The notes under the pieces are model-generated. The model had not been told where the DNA came from, searched no databases, and was given only the letters and a program-made list of their open reading frames with translations. The position numbers and the translations under genes are program-made. Below are positions 43,295 to 64,000 of a stretch of 64,000 bases of DNA, piece after piece. Source of the DNA: Lachnospiraceae bacterium (GTDB lineage Bacteria > Bacillota > Clostridia > Lachnospirales > Lachnospiraceae). Numbering within the stretch: the first letter of the stretch is position 1; each line of letters starts with the position of its first letter. Where the stretch lies: the NCBI GenBank assembly GCA_011960625.1, contig BLMJ01000224.1:1-64000 (forward strand), in the 5' to 3' direction.

Positions 43295-43336
43295 AAAAGA
43301 CCCGCCAGATTTCTGTTTGTTCTGGCGGGTCCTTTT
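43295..43336. terminator. Convergent terminator shared by the fol operon and polysaccharide operon
   Basis: aaaagacccgccaga-tttctgtttgt-tctggcgggtcctttt, perfect 11-bp core stem. Confidence 0.75.
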
Positions 43337-45003: not shown

Positions 45004-46078
45004 TTTCAAATTCTCCAGCCATATCCGTACTTGCAAATTGAGTCAAGGGAAGTCTTACTGCCTTCCCTTCCTTCTGACTCTTATAGATTGCCAATACAAG
45101 CTCCAATGCATTTTTTCCTGCATGTGCGTCTACATAGGGCGCCCTGTTATTTTCAATCGCATCTATCACATCTGCATAGAGGCTTGTATGTCCGTTGCCG
45201 TATACATTGCTCGTCTGTTCTTTCAGCCCCTTATTCGCCTGGTCTTTGTCTGTCTCGTCTGAAAAGCTCCACACATCAATATTGTTTGTGGACTTCCCGC
45301 CTATTTTCACGGTTCCATTTTCGCCAAACAGATACAGTGTCTCTTCTAAATTCTGTGGATAGACGTTGGTGGTTCCTTCAATCGTCCCAATAGCGCCGTT
45401 TTTAAATTTTACTACCGCCATTCCCACATCCTCGGCTTCCAGATAATCATGGAACTGCTGTCTGGTGGCCCCGTAAACCTCTTCGATGTCAGTCCCCATC
45501 ACCCAGCGCAGCAGGTCGATACCGTGTATGCACTGATTCATAAGCGCGCCCCCGTCCTGGGCCCAGGTGCCTCTCCAGGGAGCCTGTGTATAGTAGCCTT
45601 GATTCCGATTCCACCGCACATGAATAGAGCCGTGAGATAGTTTCCCAAATCTCCCGGCCTCCAAAGCTTTCCGCATTTCCTGAACTGCAATATTAAATCT
45701 GTTTTGATGACAGGCGGATACCTTTACCTGTTTTTCCTCTGAGAGCTGAATAATCCGCTTGGCATCCGCCATATTCATTGCCATAGGCTTCTCGATAATT
45801 ACATGAATACCATGGTCAATGCAGTAGAGGGCAATCTGAGCGTGGCTTCCGCTTTCGGTGGCAATTCCTACAAGCTGAATGTCATTTTCCTGAATTAATT
45901 TTTTGTAGTCTGTGTAGCGTTTGATTGAGGTATGATGATGTAAATCATGTTTTTCTAACAGTTGTTCCATATGTTCTGGGATAATATCACAGACGGCAGT
46001 GAGTTCTAAGTTGTTGTTTTGGACTGCTTTGATATGGTTTGCCGCGATTCTTCCGCAGCCTATTAATGCATATTTCAT
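44996..46078 (-). CDS. Gfo/Idh/MocA oxidoreductase (WbpB-like)
   Basis: [28 protein letters not shown]. Confidence 0.93.
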
Positions 46079-47166
46079 TATTTTTCTCCTTGTATTAATC
46101 TACAGATTTCATAGGCAGCTTTTCCCTGCCCATAATAATCTTCTTTTTTTGACCAGTCGCTCTTTGTATTCAACACTTTGTCTGCAAGGTCAAGTCGCTC
46201 TGGCTTTGCAAGTATATTACAATTACCCTTTAAAGTCTCAATCCATTCCGTCTGATCCCTTACAGTCACACACGGAGTCTCTAATATATATGTTTCTTTT
46301 TGCAGTCCTCCTGAATCTGTTATGGTTTTTTTAGCATGCTTCACAAAATAAAGCATCTCTAAATACCCCATTGGCTCTGTAAATATAATATTTTTATATC
46401 CATATTTCATGTTCAATGTGTCAACCAGTTTCTTCGTCCTAGGGTGAACCGGAAACAACACTGGTTCATCCAACATCTCTAATGCCGCCAAAATTTCCTC
46501 TACTTTTCTTAGGGTATCCGTATTTTCCGCGCGATGTATGGTTGCTATATACCATCTAGGAAGCGGCTTCACCTGTCCGCAGCTTCCCTGGAGTTTTTCA
46601 AAATAATAGGCTGCTTTATTTTCTTCTAACATCTGTGAATAAAATAAAACAGCATCGCACATAACATCTCCCGTATCATATACTCCCTTTACACGCCCTT
46701 CCTTTTCAAGGTTTTTGACTGCCTCTTTCGTAGGACACAGACACAATGTTGATATCCTATCTGTTAAAATTCGATTCTGTTCCTCGGGCATCTGCATATT
46801 ATAGGATCTTAAGCCTGCTTCTACGTGTACAATAGGTATACATAGCTTAGATGCGGCAATAGCTCCGGCTAATGTAGAATTTGTATCTCCATAGACTAAT
46901 AAATAGTCTGGCGACTCTTTTAAGAGCACGTCTTCAATTCTTACCATCATCTCTGCTGTCTGCCGGGCATGGGTTCCTGAACCGACCCCCAAATTTATAT
47001 CCGGCTTCGGTATTTTCAGTTCATCGAAAAAAATATCTGACATATTCGCATCATAGTGTTGACCTGTATGTACTAATATTTCTTGAAAATCTTTTCGAAT
47101 CAGTCTTGAGACAGCCGCTGCCTTAATAAATTGTGGTCTTGCTCCAACAATTGTTACAATCTTCAT
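46078..47166 (-). CDS. UDP-N-acetylglucosamine 2-epimerase-type enzyme (WecB/WbpI family)
   Basis: MKIVTIVGARPQFIKAAAVSR, VHVEAGLRSYN, PEEQNRILTDRIS, DSGGLQKE. Confidence 0.95.
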   Translation of the reverse strand: MKIVTIVGARPQFIKAAAVSRLIRKDFQEILVHTGQHYDANMSDIFFDELKIPKPDINLGVGSGTHARQTAEMMVRIEDVLLKESPDYLLVYGDTNSTLAGAIAASKLCIPIVHVEAGLRSYNMQMPEEQNRILTDRISTLCLCPTKEAVKNLEKEGRVKGVYDTGDVMCDAVLFYSQMLEENKAAYYFEKLQGSCGQVKPLPRWYIATIHRAENTDTLRKVEEILAALEMLDEPVLFPVHPRTKKLVDTLNMKYGYKNIIFTEPMGYLEMLYFVKHAKKTITDSGGLQKETYILETPCVTVRDQTEWIETLKGNCNILAKPERLDLADKVLNTKSDWSKKEDYYGQGKAAYEICRLIQGEK

Positions 47167-47180
47167 ACTGGATTTTTCTC

Positions 47181-48512
47181 CTACAAAACTTCGATATTTG
47201 TTCTATTCACAATATTTTTCATTACATTCTTGGTATCAAAAATTACTTTTGCACCTCTTTGAAGCATCTCATAGTCTACATTTGTATGTGCCGCTGTAAT
47301 CATAACAATGTCATATGTTCCTATAATCGCTTCATCAATCTTCATAATACTCGAATATTTACATCCTTTATATCTGTATTCTGTTACCCAAGGATCATAA
47401 TAATCAACATAAGCGCCATTCTTCTGAAGTACTTCAATCACTCTCAAAGCCGGACTTTCTCTATAGTCGTCTATATCTTGCTTATATGCAACGCCCACCA
47501 CAAGTACTTTTGCACCTTTCAAAGCCTTTTCAAATTGGTTCAAAATCTTTGAAGCTCTCTCCACCGTATACTCAGGCATCTTATCGTTAATCATCATAGA
47601 GCTCTCAATCATGGAAGTATGAAAACCATACTCTCTTGCTTTCCAAGTCAGATAATAGGGGTCAAGCGGAATACAATGGCCGCCAAGACCGGGACCGGGA
47701 TAAAATGCTTGAAATCCATATGGCTTTGTTTTCGCCGCATCAATTACCTCCCACATACTAATTCCCATTCGATTGCAAAGCATCGCCAGTTCGTTTACCA
47801 AACCAATATTTATATTACGATATGTATTTTCCAAAATTTTTTCCATCTCGGCAATCGCAGGAGAAGCTACCTCACAGACATCGCTTTCTAGAACCGCACG
47901 ATACATCGCTGCAATAACCTCCGTCGCCTCCTTCCCTACGCCGCCCACAACTTTAGGAGTGTTCTTTGTTTTATAAATCAAATTACCCGGATCGACTCTC
48001 TCTGGTGAAAATCCTAAATAAAATTCTTTGCCGCATTGAAGTCCTGAGCCTTTTTCAAGAATAGGCTTAATTAACTCTTCTGTCGTTCCTGGATAAGTGG
48101 TTGATTCTAATACTACCATTGTTTCTGCTTTCAAATATTTAGAAATAGCTTCTGTAGAAGTTTTGACATAACTAATATCCGGCTGCTGATGCTCGTCTAG
48201 CGGCGTTGGCACACAGATAGCAATAAAATCCACATTTTGAATAAAACTAAAGTCCGTAGTGGCTTCTAACATTCCACTGCGGACTAGTTTTTTCAAATCG
48301 CTGTCTACGACGTCTCCAATATAATTATGACCCTCATTCACATGTTCTACTTTTTCCTTCTGTACATCAAAACCGATTGTCTTAAATCCTGCTTTCGCTT
48401 TCTCAACCGCTAAGGGCAGACCGACATAACCAAGACCAACAACCCCCACTTTGATTTCTTTGTTTTTAATTTTTTCTAATAATTTTTGTTTCATATTTAC
48501 TCCTTTAATCAT
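47181..48512 (-). CDS. UDP-sugar 6-dehydrogenase (WbpA-like)
   Basis: VGVVGLGYVGLPLAVEKAKAGF, GPGLGGHCIPLDPYYL, VGVAYKQDIDDYRESPAL. Confidence 0.94.
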   Translation of the reverse strand: MIKGVNMKQKLLEKIKNKEIKVGVVGLGYVGLPLAVEKAKAGFKTIGFDVQKEKVEHVNEGHNYIGDVVDSDLKKLVRSGMLEATTDFSFIQNVDFIAICVPTPLDEHQQPDISYVKTSTEAISKYLKAETMVVLESTTYPGTTEELIKPILEKGSGLQCGKEFYLGFSPERVDPGNLIYKTKNTPKVVGGVGKEATEVIAAMYRAVLESDVCEVASPAIAEMEKILENTYRNINIGLVNELAMLCNRMGISMWEVIDAAKTKPYGFQAFYPGPGLGGHCIPLDPYYLTWKAREYGFHTSMIESSMMINDKMPEYTVERASKILNQFEKALKGAKVLVVGVAYKQDIDDYRESPALRVIEVLQKNGAYVDYYDPWVTEYRYKGCKYSSIMKIDEAIIGTYDIVMITAAHTNVDYEMLQRGAKVIFDTKNVMKNIVNRTNIEVL

Positions 48513-49606
48513 ATTTTTGTTATTTTTCTCAGGGAATAATAGAAAGAAGTCGGATAATCTGTATGCTGCTTTGGCTTCTCATTCATAATGCCCTTAAACT
48601 CTTCACGCGAGATATCCAGTTTCTGCAGAATAAAATCAATATCCTTTTCCATCTCTTCTTTATCATATAGCGGTTTTTCCATTTCCTTTAACGCTTCCTC
48701 CCTGGTCATCTGTCCGGAAACAATCATACTTGACAAATGAGAGGTCCGTTTGTCTACATGAAATTTATGATAAAACCAATATAGTTGAATAAATTTTGTT
48801 AATGTATTTTCCAAATGCTTACTTCCATAATATTCAAATCCACAAAATTCTTCTAATTCTTTTAATGCTCGTTTACGATTATAATCAACATAATTAAGAG
48901 GTCTTGGAGATTCAATTTTTAAAACTTTTTTATCAATCGCACGCTGCCATTCTGACAAAATCGGCAGCTTATCTATGGATGTTCTCCCAAATTTTTTATT
49001 GATATATTTTAAATTTTTCGTATCAAAGGCTGAATGGGTGTTGCCTCTTTGTAAGATACATTCAAGTGCAAAATTACCGCCTGATAAAAATGTATGAATT
49101 TTATGCTTACGCATATATTTATATATACACGCAAAGAGAACATTATCCTGCGGAACGGCCAGATTAGGCACACCCGCAAACACATATGCTCTCGTCAACT
49201 CATTAAACTGCTTCTCATCAGGCTTTATTGTAATCAGTTTAATTTTAGCTTTATTACATAATTTCTTAATGTTTCTTTTTGATATTTCTGTATCATATCC
49301 ATCATCTACGTGAATAGCTAAGATTCTTAATCCCCATTTTTTTGCGCCTAGATAAGCAAGGTATGATGAATCCAGACCTCCGGAAATTCCCATAATACAA
49401 TCATATTGTTTGTTTCTATTTTCTTTTTTTATTCTATCAATCAATACCTTTAATTTTTCCCTTCCTTCACTATTCGGGAAATAAACCATATTTTTAGCCT
49501 TCCATGCATCAGTACAATAATTGCATTGTCCATCCTTGTGAAATGTAATGGTATCGTCTGACTTGTTATCCATGATACATTTACTACATACTTGAACATC
49601 TTTCAT
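48509..49606 (-). CDS. N-acetyl sugar amidotransferase (WbpG/WbuX family)
   Basis: CSKCIMDNKSDDTITF, CNYC, GISGGLDSSYLAYLGAKKWGLR PP-loop. Confidence 0.92.
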   Translation of the reverse strand: MKDVQVCSKCIMDNKSDDTITFHKDGQCNYCTDAWKAKNMVYFPNSEGREKLKVLIDRIKKENRNKQYDCIMGISGGLDSSYLAYLGAKKWGLRILAIHVDDGYDTEISKRNIKKLCNKAKIKLITIKPDEKQFNELTRAYVFAGVPNLAVPQDNVLFACIYKYMRKHKIHTFLSGGNFALECILQRGNTHSAFDTKNLKYINKKFGRTSIDKLPILSEWQRAIDKKVLKIESPRPLNYVDYNRKRALKELEEFCGFEYYGSKHLENTLTKFIQLYWFYHKFHVDKRTSHLSSMIVSGQMTREEALKEMEKPLYDKEEMEKDIDFILQKLDISREEFKGIMNEKPKQHTDYPTSFYYSLRKITKI

Positions 49607-49645
49607 TTTATTATCCCTCCATCTGTTAACGGTTTATATACGTAA

Positions 49646-50974
49646 TTACAAAATCATTACAGCGAAAACACCCCCAATTATCAAGAAATATATACTAATA
49701 AATTTCAAATATCGCAGAAAGTTCTTTTTGAGACAATAAAAGTTTAGTCCCATATCAACTATCAATACAATACTCATTCCGATTGAAAACCAGATAATCG
49801 TTCCGACAAAACTGCCGCTGCTACTAAAGCCCCGCCATATAAAAAGGCTTATTATTAAAATCTGTATTATTGAATAGTACAAATTGATATTTTGACGCCC
49901 TATGGTAACTCGGCAATAACTCGTACATGTAGCGCAGAATTGCAGCACGTATTGCACTACTAAAATACTTGCTAATATTCCGGCCTCTCTCCACTGATTC
50001 CCCAATAGAAACGTAAATATTCTCTCTCCAAAAACAATAACTATAATACTAGGTATCAGAGAAATCCACATGATTTTTGAAATCAATTTATATGTAAAAT
50101 CAGATATGTTTTCTCCATTTCTATTATATCTGCTTGTTGTCCTAAAATAGACAGTACCAATTGGAGCCGCAATTAGTATGGCCGGATACTGCAAAAGTCT
50201 TACACACATTGTATAACTTCCAACTTGAGCATTTCCAAATATCCTGGAAAAAATCTGTACCGGCAGTTGTACTGCAAACTGACTTATAAAATTGGCTGGA
50301 TACTGAAATAAAATAAATTTTTTGTAAGATATAAACAAATTTTTTATATCTTTTAAATTTATTTCAAACCAAAATGGTTTTGTCCTTTTTATCATTTGAG
50401 TACATGTACAAATCAAACTAAGTATAGAAGCGCCTATAAACCCTATGATCCCCATATGAATGATTCCAAATGGCAGTGTAATCACTAATTTGGATATTGC
50501 TCCAATGATAGGATTGATAAAAAGTACTTTATTCATTCCTCTGCGGTTGGTGTACGTTATTAATAGAGAATTTAGATTTGTCAGTATAACGTAACCTCCC
50601 ATGATCATTAAAGTCATAGCGTATGAAAAGGAAACTTCAAAAAACCTATAGTAGGGCATAATAAGAATACAGCCTATCATTATAAATGAGGTAAGAAAAA
50701 GTTGTATATAAAATGTCATCGTCAATACCTTTTTCGCTTCACTATCTTCTTTCGGAAGCATAATCGACGAATTCAGTCCCAGTGTAGTGATCCCGACAAT
50801 TATTGTTGCGGTAGATGTAAATATTCCAAATTCACCATACACTTCATCTGTGTATAGCCTGCTAATGATAGGTATTGTTATGATATTAATGATTTGTGCT
50901 AACAAATTCCCTGCGCCTACGCTGAATACACTTTTTAAAAACTCATTTTTCTTTATACTACGTATAATATTCAT
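49646..50974 (-). CDS. Polysaccharide flippase (Wzx-like)
   Basis: ~12 TM; MNIIRSIKKNEFLKSVFSVGAGNLLAQIINIITIPIISRLYTDEVYGEFGIF. Confidence 0.93.
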   Translation of the reverse strand: MNIIRSIKKNEFLKSVFSVGAGNLLAQIINIITIPIISRLYTDEVYGEFGIFTSTATIIVGITTLGLNSSIMLPKEDSEAKKVLTMTFYIQLFLTSFIMIGCILIMPYYRFFEVSFSYAMTLMIMGGYVILTNLNSLLITYTNRRGMNKVLFINPIIGAISKLVITLPFGIIHMGIIGFIGASILSLICTCTQMIKRTKPFWFEINLKDIKNLFISYKKFILFQYPANFISQFAVQLPVQIFSRIFGNAQVGSYTMCVRLLQYPAILIAAPIGTVYFRTTSRYNRNGENISDFTYKLISKIMWISLIPSIIVIVFGERIFTFLLGNQWREAGILASILVVQYVLQFCATCTSYCRVTIGRQNINLYYSIIQILIISLFIWRGFSSSGSFVGTIIWFSIGMSIVLIVDMGLNFYCLKKNFLRYLKFISIYFLIIGGVFAVMIL

Positions 50975-52193
50975 TTTTACCTTCTTTCTTCCTGCAAAAA
51001 CAATGAAAACAAAATCCTAATAGCATAAAGAATTCTGTAGAAGCTATATAGCTTCCGGAAAAAAACAATGGAAATAATCCGATTCCGCAAAATATATATG
51101 CAATAAATATCATATCCTCATCATTATGATCAAAAAGAATTTCGCGTAAAGAATAAAGAAAAAGCAATATTAGAATAACCCCCAATACAATTCCAAATTG
51201 AAGTATTAATTCAACAAAAAAATTGTGAGGATACCATCCTATCGCCTGATCACCTATGCTTATTCTATTCTTCAATAAAACCCTATCATTTAAACATCCT
51301 ACTCCAAAGAAATAGTGTTCCGCCAAAATATCAAAGCTGTATTTTACAAGAGAGGCTCTCGCATTATCTTCAAAAAATGATGACGATGCGATTTTATCTA
51401 ACACACGAACACTGACATTCCATTTATAAAAAAGATTTAACAGCCAAGTAACTATGTTCATCATATTCTTGATTATGAGGATGCCTAACACCATGATTGT
51501 TCCTATGGAAAACACTTTATTCTTTATATTGTTTCTTTTTCTAAAAATAATATAAAATACTAAAATCAAAATGGAACAGAACAATGCCCCCCTAGCTCCG
51601 CATGACAATACCATAATTTCAGCGAAACAAAAATTTATAAAGTGTAACAGATGAAACTTATTCATAAAAAAAACTGCTGAAATAACCGCCGGAATCAAAA
51701 ATTGGTATGCCAGATATTGAGAATATGTTCCAGATGCAAGTTCCTGCGCATGAAATACAAAAATATTTACAAAAAGTGAAACATTAAAAATATATGATGT
51801 AATACCTAAATATTTTTTCAACTTCTCCATATTGTCTATAGAATTTGCAATGTAAAATGCCGGAAAGCACTTCAAAATAGTTTCGCTATACACTGTTTTT
51901 GCCATTTCCCAGTTAAAAAGCGGTGAAATTGCCGATAAAACTATAGAAATAAAGAAGAAATATGTAAAAATCAAATGTTCTTTTTTTATAGCTTCTCCTA
52001 TTTTTTTTAAAGATAAAAATACTAATACTACTAATATGCCATTAAATAATATTTTATCTAATCCTCTTGTATATCCAACTATTTTCATTATAGCATTTGA
52101 AAAAGTGATTTGTAATTGGCTATGACATAGAAAAGCACAACATAGAATGGTATTACTATTCTCATTGATATCCCGTACTGATATTTTAATCAT
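50958..52193 (-). CDS. O-antigen/capsule polymerase-like (Wzy)
   Basis: Many TM helices; HNFFVELILQFGIVLGVILI typical of Wzy ligase/polymerase loop. Confidence 0.82.
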   Translation of the reverse strand: MIKISVRDINENSNTILCCAFLCHSQLQITFSNAIMKIVGYTRGLDKILFNGILVVLVFLSLKKIGEAIKKEHLIFTYFFFISIVLSAISPLFNWEMAKTVYSETILKCFPAFYIANSIDNMEKLKKYLGITSYIFNVSLFVNIFVFHAQELASGTYSQYLAYQFLIPAVISAVFFMNKFHLLHFINFCFAEIMVLSCGARGALFCSILILVFYIIFRKRNNIKNKVFSIGTIMVLGILIIKNMMNIVTWLLNLFYKWNVSVRVLDKIASSSFFEDNARASLVKYSFDILAEHYFFGVGCLNDRVLLKNRISIGDQAIGWYPHNFFVELILQFGIVLGVILILLFLYSLREILFDHNDEDMIFIAYIFCGIGLFPLFFSGSYIASTEFFMLLGFCFHCFCRKKEGKNEYYT

Positions 52194-53373
52194 TCTTTTT
52201 CTCTTTCATAATATTATTTAGACTTTTCTTTAATTTTAGATTTTCCTTTTCCCAGCAAAGCTCTTTTTTTGCTTTTATAAGATTTTCTTTTAACCTGAAA
52301 TATATTTGAGGATTGTCTTTTAGCTTACTCACGCTTTTACAAACATTTTCCATATCATAAGGAGCACAGGTTATGCCTATATCATATAGATCGATAATTT
52401 TTTTAACTTCTGGAAAATTAGAGGCTAAAATGGGAGTCATACTCTGTATACTTTCGAAAAATTTGTTGGGCAGCATATAGTAATAACTCTCACAAATTCC
52501 TGGAATTAAAATCACTTCCAAATCAACCGCGCCTACATAATCTCCTAGCTGTTGCTGAGAAACTGCTTCTAAAAATAACACTTTTGAATCTATTCCTATC
52601 TGTTTACACAATTTTTTTAAACTTTTTAGATAGTTTTCATCCCCATTTCCTAAAACAATGCCCGCGGTATTAGAAACTGAACCAACGATATTAAGCATAG
52701 CTTCTATTCCTCTATTCGGAATAACCCCGCCATGATACATTAGCAAAAACGTATCTTTTTCCAATCCCATTTTTTTTAGAAACGTTTTTCTAAGTTCCGC
52801 ACTTTTCTGCTCATTGGTATGATAAGAATAAGGTATATTTCTGATGACTAGAGGACGCATATTTAAATTGTATTTTTCCTGTACCTTTGCTGCAATACTA
52901 TCGCTTACTACTATGGACAAATCACTCGTTCTTATTGCAAATTTCTCAAGTACGCCGATAATCTTCTTTTGGAGTAAGTTCCTTTTTATATTTCTTCCGA
53001 TTTCAAATTCATGCGCATCATAAATTAGTTTAGGAGGATTACTTACAAACCGTGTAGAAAAATATCCAATCAAGTATGCCGTCAAATCATGCCCACTGAT
53101 GATTTCCGGATTCAATTTTCTAATTCGCATACTCCATAAAAAAATTGTAAAAATTCTATTTAATGGAATTAAGAACCTACTCTCTCCCAAATACCTAGTT
53201 GTGTAAAAACATAATTTATAATTATTCCTTGTTGTTTCCACCTTGCGATCTTTTTTTCTGTCTCCTTTGGCAACGACTAGAATATCCATTTTCAATTCCT
53301 GTGCAACCGACAATTCTCTTTCATCTCGACTTTGATTTTTAAATTCTGCACAAACTATTTTTAAATATGTCAT
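52186..53373 (-). CDS. Glycosyltransferase (GT4-like)
   Basis: YDAHEFEIGRN, YHGGVIPNRGIEAML, LPNKFFESI. Confidence 0.87.
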   Translation of the reverse strand: MTYLKIVCAEFKNQSRDERELSVAQELKMDILVVAKGDRKKDRKVETTRNNYKLCFYTTRYLGESRFLIPLNRIFTIFLWSMRIRKLNPEIISGHDLTAYLIGYFSTRFVSNPPKLIYDAHEFEIGRNIKRNLLQKKIIGVLEKFAIRTSDLSIVVSDSIAAKVQEKYNLNMRPLVIRNIPYSYHTNEQKSAELRKTFLKKMGLEKDTFLLMYHGGVIPNRGIEAMLNIVGSVSNTAGIVLGNGDENYLKSLKKLCKQIGIDSKVLFLEAVSQQQLGDYVGAVDLEVILIPGICESYYYMLPNKFFESIQSMTPILASNFPEVKKIIDLYDIGITCAPYDMENVCKSVSKLKDNPQIYFRLKENLIKAKKELCWEKENLKLKKSLNNIMKEKKND

Positions 53374-53391
53374 CTTTCTACCTTCTATTAA

Positions 53392-54501
53392 CTATACTCT
53401 TAACTCTATTTGTCCATATAACTCAATTAGCTTTTTTTCTTCCATTTCCCAATTATACTTTTCTTCTGCCGCTTTACGTCCATTTTCTCCCATTTTTTTA
53501 GCTTTCTCTGTATCATTCTTCAGAGTCAAAATCGCTTCGATAATCTCATGTTGATTATACGGATTAACGCATATTCCACATTCCCATTCTTCAATAATTT
53601 TTTTCCACAGTTTAAAATCTGTACAAATAACAGGTATTCCAGCCTCCATATATTCAAATAATTTTGTATTTCCTAAAGTCCCCGTCTTATATCCTACATT
53701 TGCGTTATAAGAGTTAAGCGCCATACCTGCCAACGAACGGGCATATATCTTTTTTACCTCCTCATGGGGTTTTACTCCGAGATAGTTTACTCTTTCCCAC
53801 CCTTTTTCTTTTTTCAATTCTTCCATATAACCTCCGCTTCCTTTTCCAACAAGGTTATATCTCACCTCGCATTGTTCCAAGCAGCCTATGACGTTATGAT
53901 GCATCCACTGTTCTGATATTCCACCTGCAAAACAGATACTATCCGTCCTGCCTTCTTCACCTGCGCCAATTTGTATTTTATCGGTTATAATAGGGAAATT
54001 TGAAATAACGGTCGTCTTAATTCCTTTTTTAGAAAACCTATCTGAAATATGAGGCGAAACCGTTATAACTGCATCAAATTTTTGGGAAATATTTTTTTCT
54101 GTAACTTCTATTAAGAAAGAAACTATTCTTCTCAGTACAGACGGTATCCACGTTTTTCCTAACACCTGTCTCCCTATATCTTCATGAGCGTCGTATATCA
54201 CTTTCTTTCCTTTCTTTTTCAAAAGGTATCCACAGGGTAATAACTCTGGATCATGCAGATGGTAGATTTGACTGTCTGTTCGGAGCGCCTGCTTATACAC
54301 ACGGTATGTCGAAAAAAGGATTCTTTTTATACGATTTTTATCTTGGGGAATACCAATGATATGTATGGATTCTTTCTCTTTACTATCTCCTGGAGCTATG
54401 AGACTTACATCATATCCTGCCTTCTTTAATGATACACATTCTTTCTCAAATATCCTTACATCATCAGCCTTATGCACGCTAGTCAAATGACATATTTTCA
54501 C
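53392..54501 (-). CDS. Glycosyltransferase (GT4-like)
   Basis: MKICHLTSVHKADDVRIFEKECVSLKKAGYDVSLIAPGD, NTKLFEYMEAGIPVICTDF. Confidence 0.92.
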   Translation of the reverse strand: MKICHLTSVHKADDVRIFEKECVSLKKAGYDVSLIAPGDSKEKESIHIIGIPQDKNRIKRILFSTYRVYKQALRTDSQIYHLHDPELLPCGYLLKKKGKKVIYDAHEDIGRQVLGKTWIPSVLRRIVSFLIEVTEKNISQKFDAVITVSPHISDRFSKKGIKTTVISNFPIITDKIQIGAGEEGRTDSICFAGGISEQWMHHNVIGCLEQCEVRYNLVGKGSGGYMEELKKEKGWERVNYLGVKPHEEVKKIYARSLAGMALNSYNANVGYKTGTLGNTKLFEYMEAGIPVICTDFKLWKKIIEEWECGICVNPYNQHEIIEAILTLKNDTEKAKKMGENGRKAAEEKYNWEMEEKKLIELYGQIELRV

Positions 54502-55741
54502 TCTCTATATCCTCCAATATTTTCCTATACTTAGGCCCTAATACGTTAAAACTATATTTCTTTTCTATCTCCTCTTTTCCTCTTTTTCCCATATGTTTTT
54601 TTTCTTTTTCAGACATCTTATAGAGCCGTAAAATCGCATCTGCATACTTTTCTTCCTTCCCATACTCCATAGTAATTCCGCCCCCGCTATCTTTTACAAC
54701 ATTTTCTGCATCGCATGCAAAGACAACGGGCCTGCCCGAATATAAATAATCATTTAGTTTATTCATACTTAGCCCATATTTATACAAACTTACATTCTCA
54801 TGTGCTGCTAAACAAATTTTGCCCTTTTTTAAAGCTAACGCCACCTGCTCTTTTGTAATTTTAGAAAAGAATCTCACGTTTTCAATCCTATGCTTTTTAC
54901 AATATTCTAATAATCTCTCTTTTTCGTGCCCATCTCCAATGATTGCAAATTTAATTTCCGGTTCTTTTTCAAATACCATTTCTGCAGATTGCAGAATGAA
55001 TTGAACACATTCTGCCGCCACAAGACTTCCTGCATAAACTGCACACCAGTTCTCTTCTAAATACTGATTCATATCCTCCGGCAAATTTAATTCTTCATCA
55101 GCCAGGGCCTTATCTATAATGTCAGTATTAATACCGTTAGGAATCCATTCTATTTTTTTTCTTGATATCTTATACTGATTACATATGTATTGATAGGCAT
55201 ACGGCATTGTTGTTATAATTTTATCCGACCTATCATATGCCCTCTTCTCAATCAAGCCAAAAAAGTAGACAATTATATTTGCGGGAGACATACCGCATAA
55301 TTCGATAAATGATAATGGCCACAAATCTCTTACTTCACATATAAATTTACTGTCTGCCTTTTTTGATATCCAATATGCTGCCTCCCATGCCAATGGATGT
55401 ACTGATGAACCTATTACAAAGTCCGGTCTGCCATATATATTCTCTATCTGGTTATAATACTTCTTCACTTTTCTTACATAAGAAAACATATTTAATATAC
55501 GTTTTCCTCCGTTATCCATATATGGAGGACTCGTTCTCAGCCACACATATTTTATATTTTTTTCTATATTTTGAATAAAAAATTCTTGATCATTCAGATA
55601 AGTTCTTGGACCATGCAGAAAAGAAGAGGCAATAACAATAACCTTTATATCTGCATTCTTTACAAATTGTTTTGCTAATTCAAAATGGCGATGTCCCTCC
55701 AAACCAGCATGATGATTACATATCCAAATCGTTTTTTTCAT
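54479..55741 (-). CDS. Glycosyltransferase (WbuB-like GT4)
   Basis: CEVRDLWPLSFIEL, EWIPNGINTDIID, AVYAGSLV, YLYSGRPVVFAC. Confidence 0.92.
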   Translation of the reverse strand: MKKTIWICNHHAGLEGHRHFELAKQFVKNADIKVIVIASSFLHGPRTYLNDQEFFIQNIEKNIKYVWLRTSPPYMDNGGKRILNMFSYVRKVKKYYNQIENIYGRPDFVIGSSVHPLAWEAAYWISKKADSKFICEVRDLWPLSFIELCGMSPANIIVYFFGLIEKRAYDRSDKIITTMPYAYQYICNQYKISRKKIEWIPNGINTDIIDKALADEELNLPEDMNQYLEENWCAVYAGSLVAAECVQFILQSAEMVFEKEPEIKFAIIGDGHEKERLLEYCKKHRIENVRFFSKITKEQVALALKKGKICLAAHENVSLYKYGLSMNKLNDYLYSGRPVVFACDAENVVKDSGGGITMEYGKEEKYADAILRLYKMSEKEKKHMGKRGKEEIEKKYSFNVLGPKYRKILEDIESENMSFD

Positions 55742-55763
55742 TTTATCCCTCTAATTGTGTCTC

Positions 55764-56819
55764 TCATTTTTTTGTTCTATATAATGGAAAAAAATCTGAA
55801 TCCATTTCGATGAGATTGAAATTCATCCTAGTAAATTGATCATATTTCTCTTTATCAAATATCCTCTTTCCTATATAAAAATCCATCTCTCCCTCCGGAG
55901 CAAAGGATTTTTTATACCTATATATCCCATCGTCGCTGCCATATCCCCCGCCTAGCACAAAGTTTCTAAGTCCTTTTTCTTTGGCCCATTTTATAATCTC
56001 AACCTTCAGAAAATCATTTGGCCTTACATGAAAATAATGACTGTCCGTACCACCCAGATATGAGTAAGCGTTTTCACTTCCGTAGATTACCAACTCTGTG
56101 GATATAATCTGCCCTTCATACAATACATGGAAGTAACACACATTTTCTCTCATCTCATTTAAGGTCTTAAAAAAGCTTTCTTGAAAAAAGAACGCTTCTT
56201 CTGCCTCCGTACGCTCCATAGTTCCATAATAAATGCGGAGGAAGTCGTCCAACTTTTCTCCGCATTCGTCTATCATTATTTCAAGCCCGTTCTTTTGAGC
56301 TTTTCGATAATTTTTTCTTACTTTATGTTCAAAATTTGAAAAAATTTCTTCCATTGTCCCTTCCAGGCTGCGTACAATATTATGTGTCCTGGTTTCGATC
56401 TGTCCTGTATAATATTTACGATATGGTTCCATCAATTCAAATCGAACAAACTCACTCACATACCTATTCTTAGCACAATATGCATCATACTCCTTCAGAA
56501 TTATCTGGAAACTTGATTCATCTCCCATAAGCATAAAACCGCCGTATCCGTAGGGAGAACTTATATCAAAGTATTTTCCCTTTTCCAACTTTCCCTGAAA
56601 CTGAGCGCACTCTGCAATGTCTCTTTTCATAATCACATTGACTGCTTTGGCCTTACTGCACTCCACATAAATAAGAACCGGATTCCCCTCCCCCTCATTC
56701 TGAAAAGCTTTTGCATAACTGTTTAGATAGAACACGTCATATTTTTCAAATCCCTTTACAGCCGCATCCCATTCTTCCTTTTCATCAATCTGTATTTCAC
56801 GAATCACGCTTTTCACCAT
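55764..56819 (-). CDS. FemAB/GNAT-type aminoacyl/peptidyl transferase-like protein
   Basis: RKNYRKAQKNGLEI, LVIYGSENAYSYLGGTDSHYFHVRPNDFLKVEIIKWAKEKGLRNFVLGGGYGSDDGIYRYKKSFAP. Confidence 0.88.
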   Translation of the reverse strand: MVKSVIREIQIDEKEEWDAAVKGFEKYDVFYLNSYAKAFQNEGEGNPVLIYVECSKAKAVNVIMKRDIAECAQFQGKLEKGKYFDISSPYGYGGFMLMGDESSFQIILKEYDAYCAKNRYVSEFVRFELMEPYRKYYTGQIETRTHNIVRSLEGTMEEIFSNFEHKVRKNYRKAQKNGLEIMIDECGEKLDDFLRIYYGTMERTEAEEAFFFQESFFKTLNEMRENVCYFHVLYEGQIISTELVIYGSENAYSYLGGTDSHYFHVRPNDFLKVEIIKWAKEKGLRNFVLGGGYGSDDGIYRYKKSFAPEGEMDFYIGKRIFDKEKYDQFTRMNFNLIEMDSDFFPLYRTKK

Positions 56820-56822
56820 CCT

Positions 56823-57977
56823 CTATTTTTGTAAAGCCTCTTTAATCTCCGCTGGTATATCCCTGTCGGCAAGATAGATAAAATAATTCGTATCAAACGA
56901 TCTGTTCTGCACGATTTCCTGCAGCTCACTTGTCACCTGATTCTTCTTATACAGCCAGGAATACTCTTCACAGCGCTGGAACAATTCCTCCAAAAAAGCC
57001 GTCTGCTTTGCCACGAACAAAACGCCGCTGCTTCGTTGCTTCTGACTATCTAACCTTGGCCTTCTGTATCTATTCATAGCAACCTCAATGGAGCCTTTTA
57101 TATAGGAATAACCTGTACTCAGCTCTGTAAGTGGATATGAAATATGGTCTCCGCCTGAACGGGCGTTTAACTCGATAAGATAGATATCATCATTCACAAT
57201 CTTTATCTCTGTATGCGAGGTTGTATTATCCACGCATACAGCCTCCAATAATTGAGAAATTACACTTTTTATCTTACTTCTCATTTCATTGGTAAGCTTG
57301 GCCGGCTGCATATGTCCTAATTCAACGCAATGCGGGGGACCTGAGCTAAGTTTTTCAGTCACCTGGATAATATCATGACATCCATGATAGGAAATGCCTT
57401 CAACCGAATACTCTTTGCCTCCTTCTATGTATTGCTCGATGATAATCTTCGTCTTTTCCTTAGGCATATTAACATTTGCAAATGCAATCGCATCTTGCAT
57501 TTCTTCCTGACAATTGGCTACGGATATCCCACGTTTCCCCCCTAAGGAGGTCGGCTTAATAATGACTGGAAATTGTCTTACCATCGGCGCCGTATGACCA
57601 GGCTCACAAACTACATATTCCGGTTGTCTTAACTTATCCACCGTTTTTGCCTTTTCTCGCACATAACTCTTGTCCGTAATCTGTTCAGAAACCTTAACCG
57701 ACATTCCATTCAATCCCATTATCTGCGCCGTCTTTGCCGCAATATCTATGGTCAATTCCGTCGTGGCTATCACACCGCCGACCTTAAGCTTTCTGCAAAT
57801 AGTAACAATCTTATCTATTTCAAATATGGATACCAAATGGTGTTCATCCGAATGTCCTATGACCCTGTCAGAAGAATCATTTGAAAAGCTATGGGTCTCA
57901 AGATTCATCTTTTTCGCCTCGTCCGCGATGAGCACAGCCTGTTCTCCTGACCCAATAATTGCTAACCTGTCTCTCAT
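56823..57977 (-). CDS. ATP-grasp ligase
   Basis: N-terminal nucleotide-binding-like IIGSGEQAVLIADEA; PVIIKPTSLGGKRGISVANC; IELNARSGGDHISYPLTELSTGYSY. Confidence 0.88.
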   Translation of the reverse strand: MRDRLAIIGSGEQAVLIADEAKKMNLETHSFSNDSSDRVIGHSDEHHLVSIFEIDKIVTICRKLKVGGVIATTELTIDIAAKTAQIMGLNGMSVKVSEQITDKSYVREKAKTVDKLRQPEYVVCEPGHTAPMVRQFPVIIKPTSLGGKRGISVANCQEEMQDAIAFANVNMPKEKTKIIIEQYIEGGKEYSVEGISYHGCHDIIQVTEKLSSGPPHCVELGHMQPAKLTNEMRSKIKSVISQLLEAVCVDNTTSHTEIKIVNDDIYLIELNARSGGDHISYPLTELSTGYSYIKGSIEVAMNRYRRPRLDSQKQRSSGVLFVAKQTAFLEELFQRCEEYSWLYKKNQVTSELQEIVQNRSFDTNYFIYLADRDIPAEIKEALQK

Positions 57978-57992
57978 TCTTTTCTCCTTATC

Positions 57993-58934
57993 CTAACAAT
58001 GTATATTCTTTACCAGTTGATACGCTTCCTCCTCCATCCCATGCCTTTGATAAAAATGACGTCCTTTTTCATTCACTACGTCCACAAATGTAAACAGAGC
58101 TGTCTTCTTTCCACAAATTTCGTTTTCGACACTTTCAAACAACCTACTTGCAATGTGCTTTTTTCGGTATTCTGGAAGAACTGTAATTGCATTTAATAAA
58201 TACCGTTCTTCTTTCCGGTATTCATAAGGAAACACCCAAATAAAGCCCGCCAGCTCTTTTTTATCAAAATACCCATAAACAATCGCCTTATCCTGCATGA
58301 TATAATCTATAAGCTCTGTAATTCTAACGAACGCCGTCTGATAGTCTTCAGACTGTGTCAATATATGTGCCTTTGTATTAATAAGAAATAATTCTGCCAA
58401 TTCTTTCCGGTATTCATATGCTTGTTGAGAAGTAATCTTTTTTACCCCCCCCCCCTCATATTTTTCACCTGTCAGCTTCTTCTTTACAAGCTGTATTCTT
58501 TCCATCTGATACCCCATCCGATCATAGAAATTGATTGCCTCTCTATTGAAAGCCTCTGCATGTAAAAATACGGAATGACATCCCATCGTTTTCCCTATTT
58601 TTTCTATTTCAGACAGAAGCGTTTTCCCTACTTTACACCTTCTAAATCTTTCGTCCACATGCAGTATACTTACATATAACCGCTCTTTGTCATCGCGAAA
58701 TGGATATTGATACCCCCATATAAAACCAATCATTTCTTCCTCTGCCATTGCTCCGCAAACGACCGCCGTTCCCTCTTCCATATGGGTCAACATTTCTTCA
58801 TATTTTGTTTCAGCATCTGAATATTGATAAGCTTCTTCATATGAAGTATTTTTTACACTTTCATATATATATCGGATGATATTTCTCCTATGGCCTAAAG
58901 CCTCCTCAATACTTAACCGCTTAATTTGATACAT
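57993..58934 (-). CDS. Tandem (two-domain) GNAT acetyltransferase with G11 tract at the domain junction
   Basis: Domain 1 GFIWGYQYPFRDDKERLYVSILHVDERFRRCKVGKTLL...NFYDRMGYQMERIQLVKK; domain 2 GFIWVFPYEYRKEERYLLNAITVLPEYRKKHIASRLF...HFYQRHGMEEEAYQLVKN. Confidence 0.88.
   Translation of the reverse strand: MYQIKRLSIEEALGHRRNIIRYIYESVKNTSYEEAYQYSDAETKYEEMLTHMEEGTAVVCGAMAEEEMIGFIWGYQYPFRDDKERLYVSILHVDERFRRCKVGKTLLSEIEKIGKTMGCHSVFLHAEAFNREAINFYDRMGYQMERIQLVKKKLTGEKYEGGGVKKITSQQAYEYRKELAELFLINTKAHILTQSEDYQTAFVRITELIDYIMQDKAIVYGYFDKKELAGFIWVFPYEYRKEERYLLNAITVLPEYRKKHIASRLFESVENEICGKKTALFTFVDVVNEKGRHFYQRHGMEEEAYQLVKNIHC
58445..58455 (-). repeat. Homopolymeric G11 (C11 on + strand) inside coding sequence
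   Basis: aaa tat gaG GGG GGG GGG Gta aaa; counted directly. Confidence 0.97.
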
Positions 58935-58936
58935 TC

Positions 58937-60025
58937 CTATCCCCACTTTCTCAGATTTTCTGCTATCCTCTCTATATCCTCTTCGTCATATCGCTGATCA
59001 ATGGGGAAACATAATACCGTATCATATATTTCCTGAGCCTCTTTACATATTTGAGGCATAAAGCTGGGTTTGGGCCAGACAATCGGAGCATAAATATTCT
59101 GTTCTCTCATCTTAATCTGCAGTTCATTGCGTTTTTCTGACAATATTGCCAAATAAAGCGGCACATCCTTTTCTTTTAATTGGGGTGTTAGGATTCTGTA
59201 ATTCATATGATTTCTGATATTTTCATATAGTTTCTCATAGTTCTTACGCCGTTTTCTTTTTAACTCTTCGATATTTAAACTGCATTGGATTTCAATCCCT
59301 GCCTGGCTGATTCTAAAATACTTTTCCTCCGCGTCTAATATTTCCTCCGCCTCCTTGAAGCTTTTCAAGAACTCTTTTTTCTCACCCTTGCTCTCGTACA
59401 AATATTTATATTTTAAATAAGATGCCTCAAGCTTCTTATTTTCAAGCTCTTTATCATAATTTGCAGGCTTGTCTTCAAATACGCCTTCCCTGCAAACTGC
59501 AAAACCACCGTCTGGCAGCGCCGCCCATTTTCTCAAACTTCCAATGGTGTAATCCACAGGTAATCCCGAGAAATCACTGTAAAGACATTGCGTTCGATCT
59601 TCAATAAAAATGACCCCCTGCTCAACAAACTCGGAAGCTATCTTCTCAAATCCTTTCAATGTGTCGAACCCAAAATACCGATGTATAAGAACCACCTGCG
59701 CGCCGCTTGATATGAGAATCTCCCGAAATCTATTCTCATCAATATCCAGCGTAGGATTAATGGGATATGCCGCAATTTTGTAGCCTCTCTTCACAAACGG
59801 CTCGATTACTACCTCACAGGTAAAGGGAGGGACTAAGGCAATTTTTCTAATTTTAGGCTGCCTTCTCTCAATGGTGTCCAATACAAAGCCTTCCGCCCCT
59901 CGTCCTGTAGATAAAACAACCTCGTCGCTGCCCTTTATCCCATACCGGCCAATATGTAAAACAGAACCTTTATTAAGCATAATATTGGGATTAAGATCAA
60001 AATTACTACCTATTTCCTTCTGCAT
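58937..60025 (-). CDS. PLP-dependent aminotransferase-fold protein (DegT-like, divergent)
   Basis: SGAQVVLIHRYFGFDT, FIEDRTQCLYSDFSGLPVDYTIGSLRKWAALPDGGFAV. Confidence 0.75.
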   Translation of the reverse strand: MQKEIGSNFDLNPNIMLNKGSVLHIGRYGIKGSDEVVLSTGRGAEGFVLDTIERRQPKIRKIALVPPFTCEVVIEPFVKRGYKIAAYPINPTLDIDENRFREILISSGAQVVLIHRYFGFDTLKGFEKIASEFVEQGVIFIEDRTQCLYSDFSGLPVDYTIGSLRKWAALPDGGFAVCREGVFEDKPANYDKELENKKLEASYLKYKYLYESKGEKKEFLKSFKEAEEILDAEEKYFRISQAGIEIQCSLNIEELKRKRRKNYEKLYENIRNHMNYRILTPQLKEKDVPLYLAILSEKRNELQIKMREQNIYAPIVWPKPSFMPQICKEAQEIYDTVLCFPIDQRYDEEDIERIAENLRKWG

Positions 60026-60770
60026 TACAAGAAATTCTCCTCTCTATATTCAACGGTTGGTGAAGTATTATCTCTTTCCCATTTACAACGTAATGTAATC
60101 GTCCGTCTTTATCTTTTCTTGCTAAGGACACATCTGCTACATTCTTTCGCCCGATAACCTTTTTTATTGTTTCAAAAAATATTTTCGTATCTGCCGCAAA
60201 ACTAATATTCCCTATGTATTCTAAATCATATGCAAAAATTTCTTCCCAAGACAAAAAGCTTCTTCCATTAACCTGTGCCAGTCCCGTAAGTCCAGGACGG
60301 ACATCGTGCCGGTGATGTTCCGCTTTTGTATAATAGGGAATATATTCGGGCACCAACGGCCTGGGACCTACAATGGAACAATCACCCGCTATAATATTTA
60401 ACAACTCCGGCAGCTCATCCAGACTGGTTTTTCGCAAAAATTTACCGTAAGCTGTTAATCGCATTTCATCGGGCAGTAAATTTCCATTCTGATCTTTTCT
60501 GTTTGACATAGTGCGGAATTTGATAAGTTTAAATATTTTTTCATTTTTTCCCGGTCTTTTTTGTATAAAAAAAGGATTCCCTCTCATTGCGATACTTCCT
60601 CCTAAAATAAGACCTGCCAATAGCGGTGAAAGAAGGACTAAGGCAATCGTCGACAATATAAAATCGAGCGTTCTTTTTATATATACCGCATAAAATCCCT
60701 GCTTTTTTTCTATATGTTCACTTGTTTGCATCCTTCTTTTTCCTGTATTCTTATTTCTCCTTTGTATCAT
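60006..60770 (-). CDS. Initiating undecaprenyl-phosphate sugar transferase (PglC/WcaJ C-terminal type)
   Basis: KRTLDFILSTIALVLLSPLLAGLIL, KLIKFRTM, LRKTSLDELPELLNIIAGDCSIVGPRPLVPEY. Confidence 0.95.
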   Translation of the reverse strand: MIQRRNKNTGKRRMQTSEHIEKKQGFYAVYIKRTLDFILSTIALVLLSPLLAGLILGGSIAMRGNPFFIQKRPGKNEKIFKLIKFRTMSNRKDQNGNLLPDEMRLTAYGKFLRKTSLDELPELLNIIAGDCSIVGPRPLVPEYIPYYTKAEHHRHDVRPGLTGLAQVNGRSFLSWEEIFAYDLEYIGNISFAADTKIFFETIKKVIGRKNVADVSLARKDKDGRLHYVVNGKEIILHQPLNIERRISCNAEGNR

Positions 60771-61993
60771 GCAAAACACCTTTTTATGATTTCTATGATC
60801 TGTTCCTGTTCCTTTGCCGTCATCTTGTTATCGCTAGGAAGACATAACCCCCGCTGAAAGATATCCATCCCTACATCTAATGCTTTTCTCCCTCTTCCAT
60901 TCCCCTGGCGGGTGACAAATCCATTCATCCGGTAAATAGGCTGCATATGCATGGGTTTCCAGATTGGTCGTCCTTCTGCGTTATATTTCCCAAGCATTTC
61001 CAAAATCTCAGTGGGACAGCTCTTCCCTTTTTCACTAATATAAATTGCTTCCTGTTCTCCGCGAATCTGTCTGCACATGGCTTCTGAACGAATTGTCATA
61101 CATGACAGCCAATAATTTGGCTCGCTGTTCACCTTATCGAAGGGATTCATTTCGATTGGCAAATCCGTAAGGCCCTTTTGATACCTCTCATAAATCGCCT
61201 TCTTCTGCGAGATATGTTCCTCCAAGTATGGAATCTGTCCTCTGACCACACCTGCAATCACATTACTCATGCGATAGTTATAGCCTAACTCTTCGTGCTG
61301 ATACCAAGGTGCATTTTCCCTGGCCTGTGTAGACCATTTTCGCACTTTATCAGCATCCTCCAAAATATCCGTCAGCAACATCCCTCCGGAAGAGCCTGTG
61401 ATTATCTTATTCCCATTAAATGAGATACAACTATAAGCTCCGAACTTCCCCGTCTGCCTGCCTTTATAAGCTGCTCCAAAGGACTCTGCCGCATCCTCAA
61501 TCATCACCGCGCCATGCCGTTCACACACTTCCTTCAGCTCATCCATCTTTCCAGGCGTTCCATACAAGTGTGCAAATACAACCACCCTTACCTCTGGATA
61601 ACATTCAAACGCCTTCTCAAGCGCCACTGGGTCCATATTCCAGGTATCGTATTCTGTATCAATAAATATTGGTTCTCCGCCCTCATATACCACCGGATTC
61701 ACTGTGGCATCAAATGTCATATCAGAACAAAACACTTTCTCTTTTGGCCGCACTCCCGCCAATTTCACTGCCATATGCAAAGCAGCCGTCCCAGACGATA
61801 ATGCAACCGCATATTTACACCCAATCTTTTCACAGGCCATCCGTTCTGCTTCGTTGATATTTTCACCCACAGTAGACATCCAGTTCGTCTCATATGCTTT
61901 CCTAATGTACTCCAATTCCGGCCCATGCATGGTCGGTGAACTAAGCCAGATTTTTGACTCAAACGGACATAGATTTTCTTCCATTCCACTCAT
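60767..61993 (-). CDS. DegT/DnrJ/EryC1 aminotransferase (PglE-like)
   Basis: IWLSSPTMHGPELEYIRKAYETNWMSTVGENI, ALSSGTAALHMAVKLAG, EDAAESFGAAYKGRQTGKFG, SFNGNKIITGSSGGML. Confidence 0.94.
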   Translation of the reverse strand: MSGMEENLCPFESKIWLSSPTMHGPELEYIRKAYETNWMSTVGENINEAERMACEKIGCKYAVALSSGTAALHMAVKLAGVRPKEKVFCSDMTFDATVNPVVYEGGEPIFIDTEYDTWNMDPVALEKAFECYPEVRVVVFAHLYGTPGKMDELKEVCERHGAVMIEDAAESFGAAYKGRQTGKFGAYSCISFNGNKIITGSSGGMLLTDILEDADKVRKWSTQARENAPWYQHEELGYNYRMSNVIAGVVRGQIPYLEEHISQKKAIYERYQKGLTDLPIEMNPFDKVNSEPNYWLSCMTIRSEAMCRQIRGEQEAIYISEKGKSCPTEILEMLGKYNAEGRPIWKPMHMQPIYRMNGFVTRQGNGRGRKALDVGMDIFQRGLCLPSDNKMTAKEQEQIIEIIKRCFA

Positions 61994-62505
61994 ACCTCAT
62001 CTTCCTTCAACCTAATCCCCAGATAAACTTCTCTCTTCCTCCCCAGAAGCTCCTGCTCAATCCACACATACCTCTTGCGCAGCCTCTGCTTCACAATCCG
62101 GTCAAAATACACCCCCACCGGACCGTCTGCCCGTATAATCTGTCCCTGTGCATCCACCTCCACCAGTGAGCGTCTCACCACATGCTCTCCATCCTGTATA
62201 CTTCTTAAAAACATTTCCTCAGCTTCATCTACACAAAAAAACGAGTCCTGTTGATCGCTGAGAAGCTTCGTCAACTTAGGAACCCGTTTTAACTCCAAAA
62301 ACATCCTCTGCGGCTCTTCTGTCACCACAAACACATAAGCCGGAAACAACGGATACAAATCAATCTTATATTCTCCACCCACCTTACGGAACCGCTCTCT
62401 TCGAATACAGAAACATTCCTCGTAGTACCCTTTGGGAACAATTCTCTTTATCATGGTGATAAGCTCATCCTCCTCGCCGGTGTGTGTCTGAATCACATAC
62501 CACAT
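61990..62505 (-). CDS. LoaP-like NusG-family antiterminator (paralog 2)
   Basis: MWYVIQTHTGEEDELITMIKRIVPKGYYEECFCIRRERFRKVGGEYKIDLYPLFPAYVFVVTEE; start at ATG 62505 with gaggtg SD. Confidence 0.88.
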   Translation of the reverse strand: MWYVIQTHTGEEDELITMIKRIVPKGYYEECFCIRRERFRKVGGEYKIDLYPLFPAYVFVVTEEPQRMFLELKRVPKLTKLLSDQQDSFFCVDEAEEMFLRSIQDGEHVVRRSLVEVDAQGQIIRADGPVGVYFDRIVKQRLRKRYVWIEQELLGRKREVYLGIRLKEDEV

Positions 62506-62709: not shown

Positions 62710-63225
62710 TCAACTCTTTGCCATAATCTCAAGCCCCGTCCACAGCCCTTGGTCCTGATAGATCTGCAATGGGCTGTCTATTCGTGCCATTCTTTTATGA
62801 CGGTCTATTTTCCGAATCTTACACTCTCTTCCGCAAAGAGGCCCTTCTGTCACAAAGGTCTCCCCGTCCCTGATATACCCTTTCGACATTGCAATACAAT
62901 GGGTATTTCCTCCCATATCCTCAAGGAAGTCTCTTTCAGGCTTTAGAAGCTTAAGACTATACATTCCGACGCCCAGTTCCCGAAATACTGCCGTTTCTTT
63001 TGCAGCTTTCTCCAACCGTTTCCTGCTGTCTATCTTTGCGAATACACACCCCTTTAGAAAAGTTTCTTCCTGACAATGCCAGTTCCCGTTATACCGCCTC
63101 ATTTTTTCAAAAGTAATCAGAAAAATTTCATCTTTCCCCAAACAACAATACCGTTGCCTAAGTAATTCTGCCGCCTGCTTTTCTTTTCCCTTTTCACAAT
63201 GCAGTATATACCAGATTAGAAACAC
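62710..63225 (-). CDS. LoaP-like NusG-family antiterminator (paralog 1), unusual start codon
   Basis: IWYILHCEKGKEKQAAELLRQRY...EETFLKGCVFAKIDSRKRLE...ETFVTEGPLCGRECKIRKIDRHKRMARI; homologous layout to paralog 2. Confidence 0.8.
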   Translation of the reverse strand: MFLIWYILHCEKGKEKQAAELLRQRYCCLGKDEIFLITFEKMRRYNGNWHCQEETFLKGCVFAKIDSRKRLEKAAKETAVFRELGVGMYSLKLLKPERDFLEDMGGNTHCIAMSKGYIRDGETFVTEGPLCGRECKIRKIDRHKRMARIDSPLQIYQDQGLWTGLEIMAKS

Positions 63226-63236
63226 CTCCCTACTTT

Positions 63237-63259
63237 TCGCTGAGTAAGATACTCTGCGA
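63237..63259 (+). repeat. Left inverted repeat (IRL) of candidate invertible promoter segment
   Basis: tcgctgagtaagatactctgcga; reverse complement matches IRR 22/23. Confidence 0.85.
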
Positions 63260-63456
63260 AAATTTTTGATACATTCGCCCTATAAATTATCAGAATAATA
63301 TAAAATTTAAAAATTTGAATTAGATAATAATATTTTTTTTAATAATTAGAGCAATAATTATAACCTGCATTTCATACCAAATCCTTCTAAAAGTAATTTA
63401 GGTATTGAATTATTTTCTTTAGATGGTTATAATAGATACGTTATTAAAAGAAAAAA
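63260..63456. promoter_or_regulatory. 197-bp AT-rich candidate invertible segment
   Basis: Bounded by the IRL/IRR pair; contains TTGAAT-N17-TATAAT on + strand. Confidence 0.65.
63405..63433 (+). promoter_or_regulatory. Sigma-A-type promoter TTGAAT-N17-TATAAT inside the candidate invertible segment
   Basis: TTGAAT 63405-63410; TATAAT 63428-63433; exact 17-bp spacer; points away from the polysaccharide operon. Confidence 0.75.
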
Positions 63457-63479
63457 TCGCAGAGTATCTTACTCTGCGA
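63457..63479 (-). repeat. Right inverted repeat (IRR), also a perfect hairpin followed by T-tract
   Basis: tcgcagagta-tct-tactctgcga, flanked by aaaaaa / ttttt. Confidence 0.85.
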
Positions 63480-63522
63480 TTTTTCTATGTTATCAATTAT
63501 TTTATAAAACTTGCCAATGCTG

Positions 63523-63592: not shown

Positions 63593-64000
63593 ATGCCAAA
63601 CATCAAATTAATGGAAACGGCGCTTCCAATCGCGCCACTAAAAATCGCGGCTCTCGATTCCTGTAAGGAGCTTGGGCAAAAAGTAGACCAATACATCGTA
63701 CAGTTCCGTCAGGACACCCTGCGGGAATCTCTGGATTCTCCGCTCTTTTCCAGCTACCAACTGGATACCTACCTGGTGGGCTGCCAATGCCCGCGCTTTG
63801 GCACTGGGGAAGCCAAAGGCCTGATTCACGAATCTATCCGCGGTAAAGATCTATTTATCATTGTTGACGTATGCAACCACAGCCTGACTTACACGGTCAA
63901 CGGACACCCGAACCATATGTCCCCTGATGATCACTACCAAGACCTAAAACGTATCATCTCGGCAGCCAACGGCAAGGCTCACAGGTTAAATGTAATTATG
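63593..64000 (+). CDS. prs: Ribose-phosphate pyrophosphokinase-like protein, 5' part (runs off the window)
   Basis: MPNIKLMETALPIAPLKIAALDSCKELGQKVDQYIVQFRQ...GEAKGLIHESIRGKDLFIIVDVCNHSLTYTVNG...SPDDHYQDLKRIISAANGKAHRLNVIM; not in the ORF track because it has no stop. Confidence 0.85.
   Translation, partial: MPNIKLMETALPIAPLKIAALDSCKELGQKVDQYIVQFRQDTLRESLDSPLFSSYQLDTYLVGCQCPRFGTGEAKGLIHESIRGKDLFIIVDVCNHSLTYTVNGHPNHMSPDDHYQDLKRIISAANGKAHRLNVIM

Follow-up and report, generated by a model that had tools for sequence, protein, structure and literature searches.

A putative phase-variable promoter at the head of a LoaP-linked capsule operon in a Lachnospiraceae genome, and the family of elements to which it belongs

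The capsule operon and the paired repeats upstream of it

Analysis of the window (the whole 64,000-nt stretch of DNA studied here) indicates that its minus strand carries an operon of ~20 kb, from LoaP1 down to position 43335, and its capsule-like gene content agrees with the surface-polysaccharide operon that the original prediction had placed on this strand. The first gene encodes LoaP1 (62710–63216, minus strand; 168 aa), a LoaP-like NusG paralogue with matches to NF033641 (96 bits) and PF02357. Profile matches identified a second LoaP-like NusG paralogue with an ATG start, LoaP2, at 61990–62505 (minus strand). NF033641, the NCBIfam model for LoaP, is the best family for both proteins, and we call them LoaP-like because their scores (96.2 and 97.2 bits) fall under the curated cut-off of 125 bits; the UpxY profile scored 25.6 bits versus 96.2 for LoaP. 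The genes at 43335–61993 (minus strand) were assigned to capsule or exopolysaccharide synthesis by domain matches and encode DegT aminotransferases, a Bac_transf sugar transferase, GNAT and FemAB-like transferases, an ATP-grasp protein, three glycosyltransferases, a Wzy-like polymerase, a Wzx-type flippase, a PP-loop enzyme, a UDP-sugar dehydrogenase, a UDP-GlcNAc 2-epimerase and a Gfo/Idh oxidoreductase. The divergent neighbour on the plus strand, a PRPP synthetase gene (63593–64000), runs past the window end.

The start of the operon had been put at about 63225. A minus-strand LoaP gene does come first, but the Shine-Dalgarno sequence AGGGAGGTG (63223–63231, minus strand; duplex −11.0 kcal/mol) covers part of the GTG at 63225, and an AUC codon at 63214–63216 (minus strand), 7 nt from that sequence, is the likelier start of LoaP1.

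Two 23-bp palindromes, both putative recombination sites, lie upstream of LoaP1. The LoaP-proximal repeat (63237–63259) reads TCGCAGAG-TATCTTA-CTCAGCGA on the minus strand and the LoaP-distal repeat (63457–63479) reads TCGCAGAG-TATCTTA-CTCTGCGA on the plus strand, so that the same 7-nt core is present in inverted orientation. The repeats agree at 22/23 positions when inverted and at 19/23 when compared directly, and they bound 197 bp of AT-rich DNA (63260–63456; GC ~16–25% between the repeats), the putative invertible segment, which has paralogues in both orientations relative to LoaP. The positions, identities and spacing reproduced those of the original prediction exactly. Dinucleotide-shuffling the window 100 times gave 0 occurrences of the 23-mer, up to 3 mismatches being allowed, and an Rfam search near the switch returned no family at its gathering score.

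The predicted promoter, TTGAAT-N17-TATAAT, is present at 63405–63433 on the plus strand and faces outward from the operon; mirroring it across the midpoint of the repeats again places its flipped −10 at 63283–63288 on the minus strand. Since a single match of this kind is unremarkable (2 found versus 3.3 ± 1.7 expected), we base the promoter call on its conservation: the extended form is kept in all 31 related elements described below, its −10 lying 21–26 nt from the repeat next to it.

The distal repeat and a U-tract form an intrinsic-terminator-like hairpin (63452–63484, plus strand; −14.0 kcal/mol, tail TTTTTCTATG; 0.1 expected in shuffles), located in the path of the outward-facing (OFF) promoter and ahead of the PRPP synthetase gene, which we propose it shields from that promoter. 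On either strand the repeat can fold into a convincing terminator-like hairpin. Among the related elements, a U-tract in the OFF direction accompanies 21/31 distal and 0/31 proximal repeats, and the hairpin expected in the transcript of the opposite (ON) orientation is weaker (mean −8.0 versus −11.7 kcal/mol). The distal site therefore probably doubles as a terminator that insulates the neighbouring gene, here PRPP synthetase.

A family of elements upstream of LoaP-like genes

Inverted pairs were selected as sites 120–500 bp apart with up to 4 arm mismatches; neither LoaP adjacency nor core identity was a criterion. This yielded 31 pairs, of which 12 come from the same draft genome as the window (G000; 2.42 Mb, 62.9% complete, 311 contigs), 11 from Sporofaciens musculi (G001) and 8 from a sister MAG (G005). 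Every one of them is directly upstream of a LoaP-like gene, the start of which is 14–20 nt from the element in 31/31 intact copies. Counting the capsule element, its own genome has no fewer than 12 such putative switches. The original prediction had not noticed this family, nor a candidate recombinase, the probable part of the distal repeat in termination or the AUC/AUU start. Genome-wide recurrence as ordinary terminators or REP-like repeats had been named beforehand as evidence against a switch; the repeats do recur, but as matched inverted pairs heading LoaP operons.

The arms are common to all loci, and the cores vary from locus to locus and agree within each pair. The central 7 nt match in inverted orientation in 31/31 pairs and in direct orientation in 0/31, and shuffling the partners gave a mean of 2.5 matches and a maximum of 10. 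This pattern is the footprint expected of a site-specific recombinase that checks overlap homology. Some loci within one genome have an identical core, and exchange between loci is therefore possible.

In a search of the genus the palindrome proved numerous in G001 and G005, and G007 and G010 each had a single copy; a doubtful match from G011 (L056) is probably due to chance. Viral contigs gave 0 matches to the paired-site pattern. Another five copies, from G001 and G005, lack a partner (L034, L037, L038:11193, L051 and L052). Two of these, L037 and L052, resemble half-elements with the promoter retained, and at L051:5000 (G005:C13) the repeat is followed by the first LoaP codons fused to unrelated sequence, possibly the result of recombination between loci or of a deletion.

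Of the 31 promoters, 29 face away from LoaP (OFF) and two face toward it (ON). Scoring by eye added three loci: an ON and an OFF element in G306, a genome consisting of a single contig, and an ON element in G010, whose contig ends inside it. The total is 30 OFF and 4 ON of 34, in different loci or species; an element in G363, whose promoter is ambiguous, was excluded from the count. The interiors of L049 (OFF) and L053 (ON) are 77% identical when one is flipped and 58% when it is not, and their LoaPs are 80% identical; for L035 and L063 the difference is modest (73% flipped, 66% unflipped). Because the compared loci are paralogues or come from different species, these alignments point to past inversion among paralogues and species and not to inversion of the capsule locus itself. 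Comparison with the related loci supports the predicted invertible promoter, in the OFF state in this assembly. The contigs with the elements L054 (G007:C92) and L055 (G010:C245) break off within the element or a few nt from it, which mixed orientations in the sample might explain, and the same might apply to L080/L113 (G319), where a contig ends inside a recombinase gene flanked by inverted repeats.

Start codons of the LoaP genes were sought as ATG, GTG, TTG, ATT, ATC, ATA or CTG before TGGTA. In all 31 loci the codon before UGG of the switch-adjacent LoaP1 gene, at the same position as in the capsule operon, is AUC (26 loci) or AUU (5 loci), with a Shine-Dalgarno sequence 5–10 nt upstream. 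LoaP2, LoaP3 and switch-unlinked LoaP genes whose starts were read mostly begin with ATG. Since some loci have an in-frame ATG or GTG 3–9 nt further upstream, we treat the AUC/AUU start as a prediction. Such a start at switch-linked LoaP genes (63214–63216 here; L031–L067 and L009 among the relatives) might act as a translational gate. A non-canonical start in Streptomyces sigR is described as repressed through IF3 (PMC5472188).

The candidate recombinase and the competing explanations

The absence of a recombinase from the window, which the original prediction had taken to mean action in trans, was confirmed, but a different contig of this genome carries the end of a recombinase gene. In a Hespellia MAG (G363) the element is adjoined by a gene for a 328-aa tyrosine recombinase (PF00589, 2.8e-24), in which the RHRY-type catalytic motifs LRLGE, HTLRHTFATR, LGH and NRYVH were read by eye. 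Orthologues with ~52–55% identity occur in G306, G001, G005 and G007, all of which bear the element, and those of G001, G005 and G007 are just upstream of rpsL. The five recombinases form one clade (support 100/99), with a long-branch warning on the tree. The window's own genome has a 1270-bp rpsL contig that ends in the final codons of the same gene, and G010, whose assembly is 78% complete, has one element and no close recombinase. This linkage and co-distribution are correlative and point to the rpsL-linked recombinase as the enzyme that would invert the element. A serine recombinase 1.8 kb from an element (G005:C19) was set aside, given that a relative occurs in the element-less G003.

The repeats with their matched cores, the family, the linkage to LoaP, the two orientations in relatives and the linkage and co-distribution of the recombinase are all read from the DNA, and together they make it highly probable that this is an inverton, in which a tyrosine recombinase acting in trans flips the promoter of the capsule operon and so makes it phase-variable. 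The recombinase encoded upstream of rpsL would bind each repeat by its palindromic arms and invert the segment through strand exchange within the core. With the switch OFF, the promoter would fire away from the operon and meet the distal hairpin and its U-tract, which would shield PRPP synthetase; with the switch ON, its transcript would cover a short leader, both LoaP genes and the ~20-kb capsule operon. LoaP1 and LoaP2 would let RNA polymerase read through this long operon. We presume their antitermination from family resemblance, because the scores are below the cut-off and a UNCG leader hairpin, as in dfn and mln, was found at no consistent position in the 31 loci, with the downstream 3 kb scanned. 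A search for a structured RNA between LoaP1 and LoaP2 was negative (z = −0.33). At least 11 other LoaP operons in the genome have the same switch, and one recombinase could therefore vary which surface polysaccharides a cell makes.

Two explanations dispense with a promoter flip. The repeats might be fixed hairpins at the edges of operons that terminate transcription in both directions or act as attenuators, as the terminator-like character of the distal repeat on both strands and the U-tracts at 21/31 distal sites would suggest. Terminators have no need of a matching core, however, and yet all 31 pairs match in inverted orientation with locus-specific cores; moreover, none of the proximal repeats has a U-tract, and loci differ in the direction in which the same promoter faces, with L049 and L053 aligning best when one is flipped. 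We regard this explanation as very improbable. A mobile repeat such as a MITE, ending in inverted repeats and inserting upstream of genes, would account for elements that are multicopy, ~210–260 bp long, AT-rich, intergenic and bounded by inverted repeats, but hardly for the single position that all intact copies occupy relative to the LoaP start, for interiors that diverge except at the promoter, for a separate core in every pair or for the linkage to a tyrosine recombinase; it has almost no claim on our belief.

The remaining alternative accepts the inversion and assigns it to a different enzyme, such as XerCD or the integrase of a mobile element. Many tyrosine and serine recombinases are encoded in element-bearing genomes, and the window's own genome has only a fragment of the candidate. 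Against this stand the adjacency in the Hespellia MAG, the co-distribution with the sites, the matching clades of sites and recombinases, and a sister clade whose recombinase genes are flanked by their own related palindromes. An enzyme other than the rpsL-linked one is quite unlikely.

Known switches and the sister recombinase clades

Mpi of Bacteroides fragilis is a serine recombinase. That species has it as its one global invertase, alongside seven invertible capsule promoters and UpxY/UpxZ (PMC12632263). The switch proposed here works like Mpi/UpxY switching without being a member of it. In both, numerous capsule loci are each preceded by a promoter, here putatively invertible, between short inverted repeats (PMC12632263), and the first gene of the locus encodes a NusG paralogue, here a presumed antiterminator; the one invertase in trans has its counterpart in our candidate recombinase. 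They differ in phylum, in the use of a tyrosine recombinase and of LoaP-like proteins instead of UpxY with no UpxZ identified, and in repeats that are near-palindromes, the distal one being also terminator-like. In Clostridioides difficile the flg and cmr switches depend on the recombinase RecV (PMC9286219, PMC7446863); these too belong to Firmicutes and have short inverted repeats bounding regulatory segments, whereas our elements precede capsule operons headed by LoaP-like genes and form a single site family with about a dozen copies in one genome. Within the literature surveyed, LoaP and phase variation appear together only in a preprint on Eggerthella lenta, in which capsule inversions adjoining loaP occur on a megabase scale at GATAAGCGCGGTTATG (PMC13174815). 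LoaP-linked capsule loci, a short inverted repeat and the lack of a recombinase beside the breakpoints are shared with our case, but the flip proposed here involves a promoter segment of ~200 bp and the GATAAGCGCGGTTATG repeat is unrelated. Antitermination by Bacillus LoaP needs a UNCG leader hairpin (PMC12691694); as in Bacillus, a NusG paralogue is found on a long biosynthetic operon, but that hairpin was not found here. If our reading is correct, Lachnospiraceae have a counterpart, built from different parts, of the combinatorial capsule switching of Bacteroides, which is relevant to how gut commensals escape phages and interact with the host. The known site sequence and the candidate recombinase make the switch directly testable in the sequenced Sporofaciens musculi WCA-9-b2.

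Seven siblings without the element (G002, G003, G004, G006, G008, G009 and G011) have a third recombinase clade and the palindrome AATGAAGTA-NNN-TACTTCATT. This palindrome is absent from G000, G001, G005 and G007, and G010 has one single-mismatch copy. The reciprocal distribution of recombinases and palindromes is the best evidence for the assignment of recombinase to site, still correlative. We propose, tentatively and with somewhat less than even confidence, that switching across the genus is run by one or the other of two global systems, each consisting of a recombinase clade and its own palindromic site, and that in the one described here the site serves both for recombination and as OFF-state terminator, and the AUC/AUU start of the first antiterminator adds a translational gate. 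Pairs of AATGAAGTA-NNN-TACTTCATT with matching inverted cores lie ~365–550 bp apart (L136:977–1423, L138:861–1429, L162, L163, L172 and L176); a few precede LoaP genes and others do not. The sister-clade tyrosine recombinase genes at L117:1308–2865, L118:1367–2860, L126:1283–2970 and L127:1401–2825 are placed between inverted palindromes ~1.4–1.7 kb apart, an arrangement which suggests that they invert themselves. By eye, a BTAD/SARP-like regulator adjoins some of the sister-clade genes.
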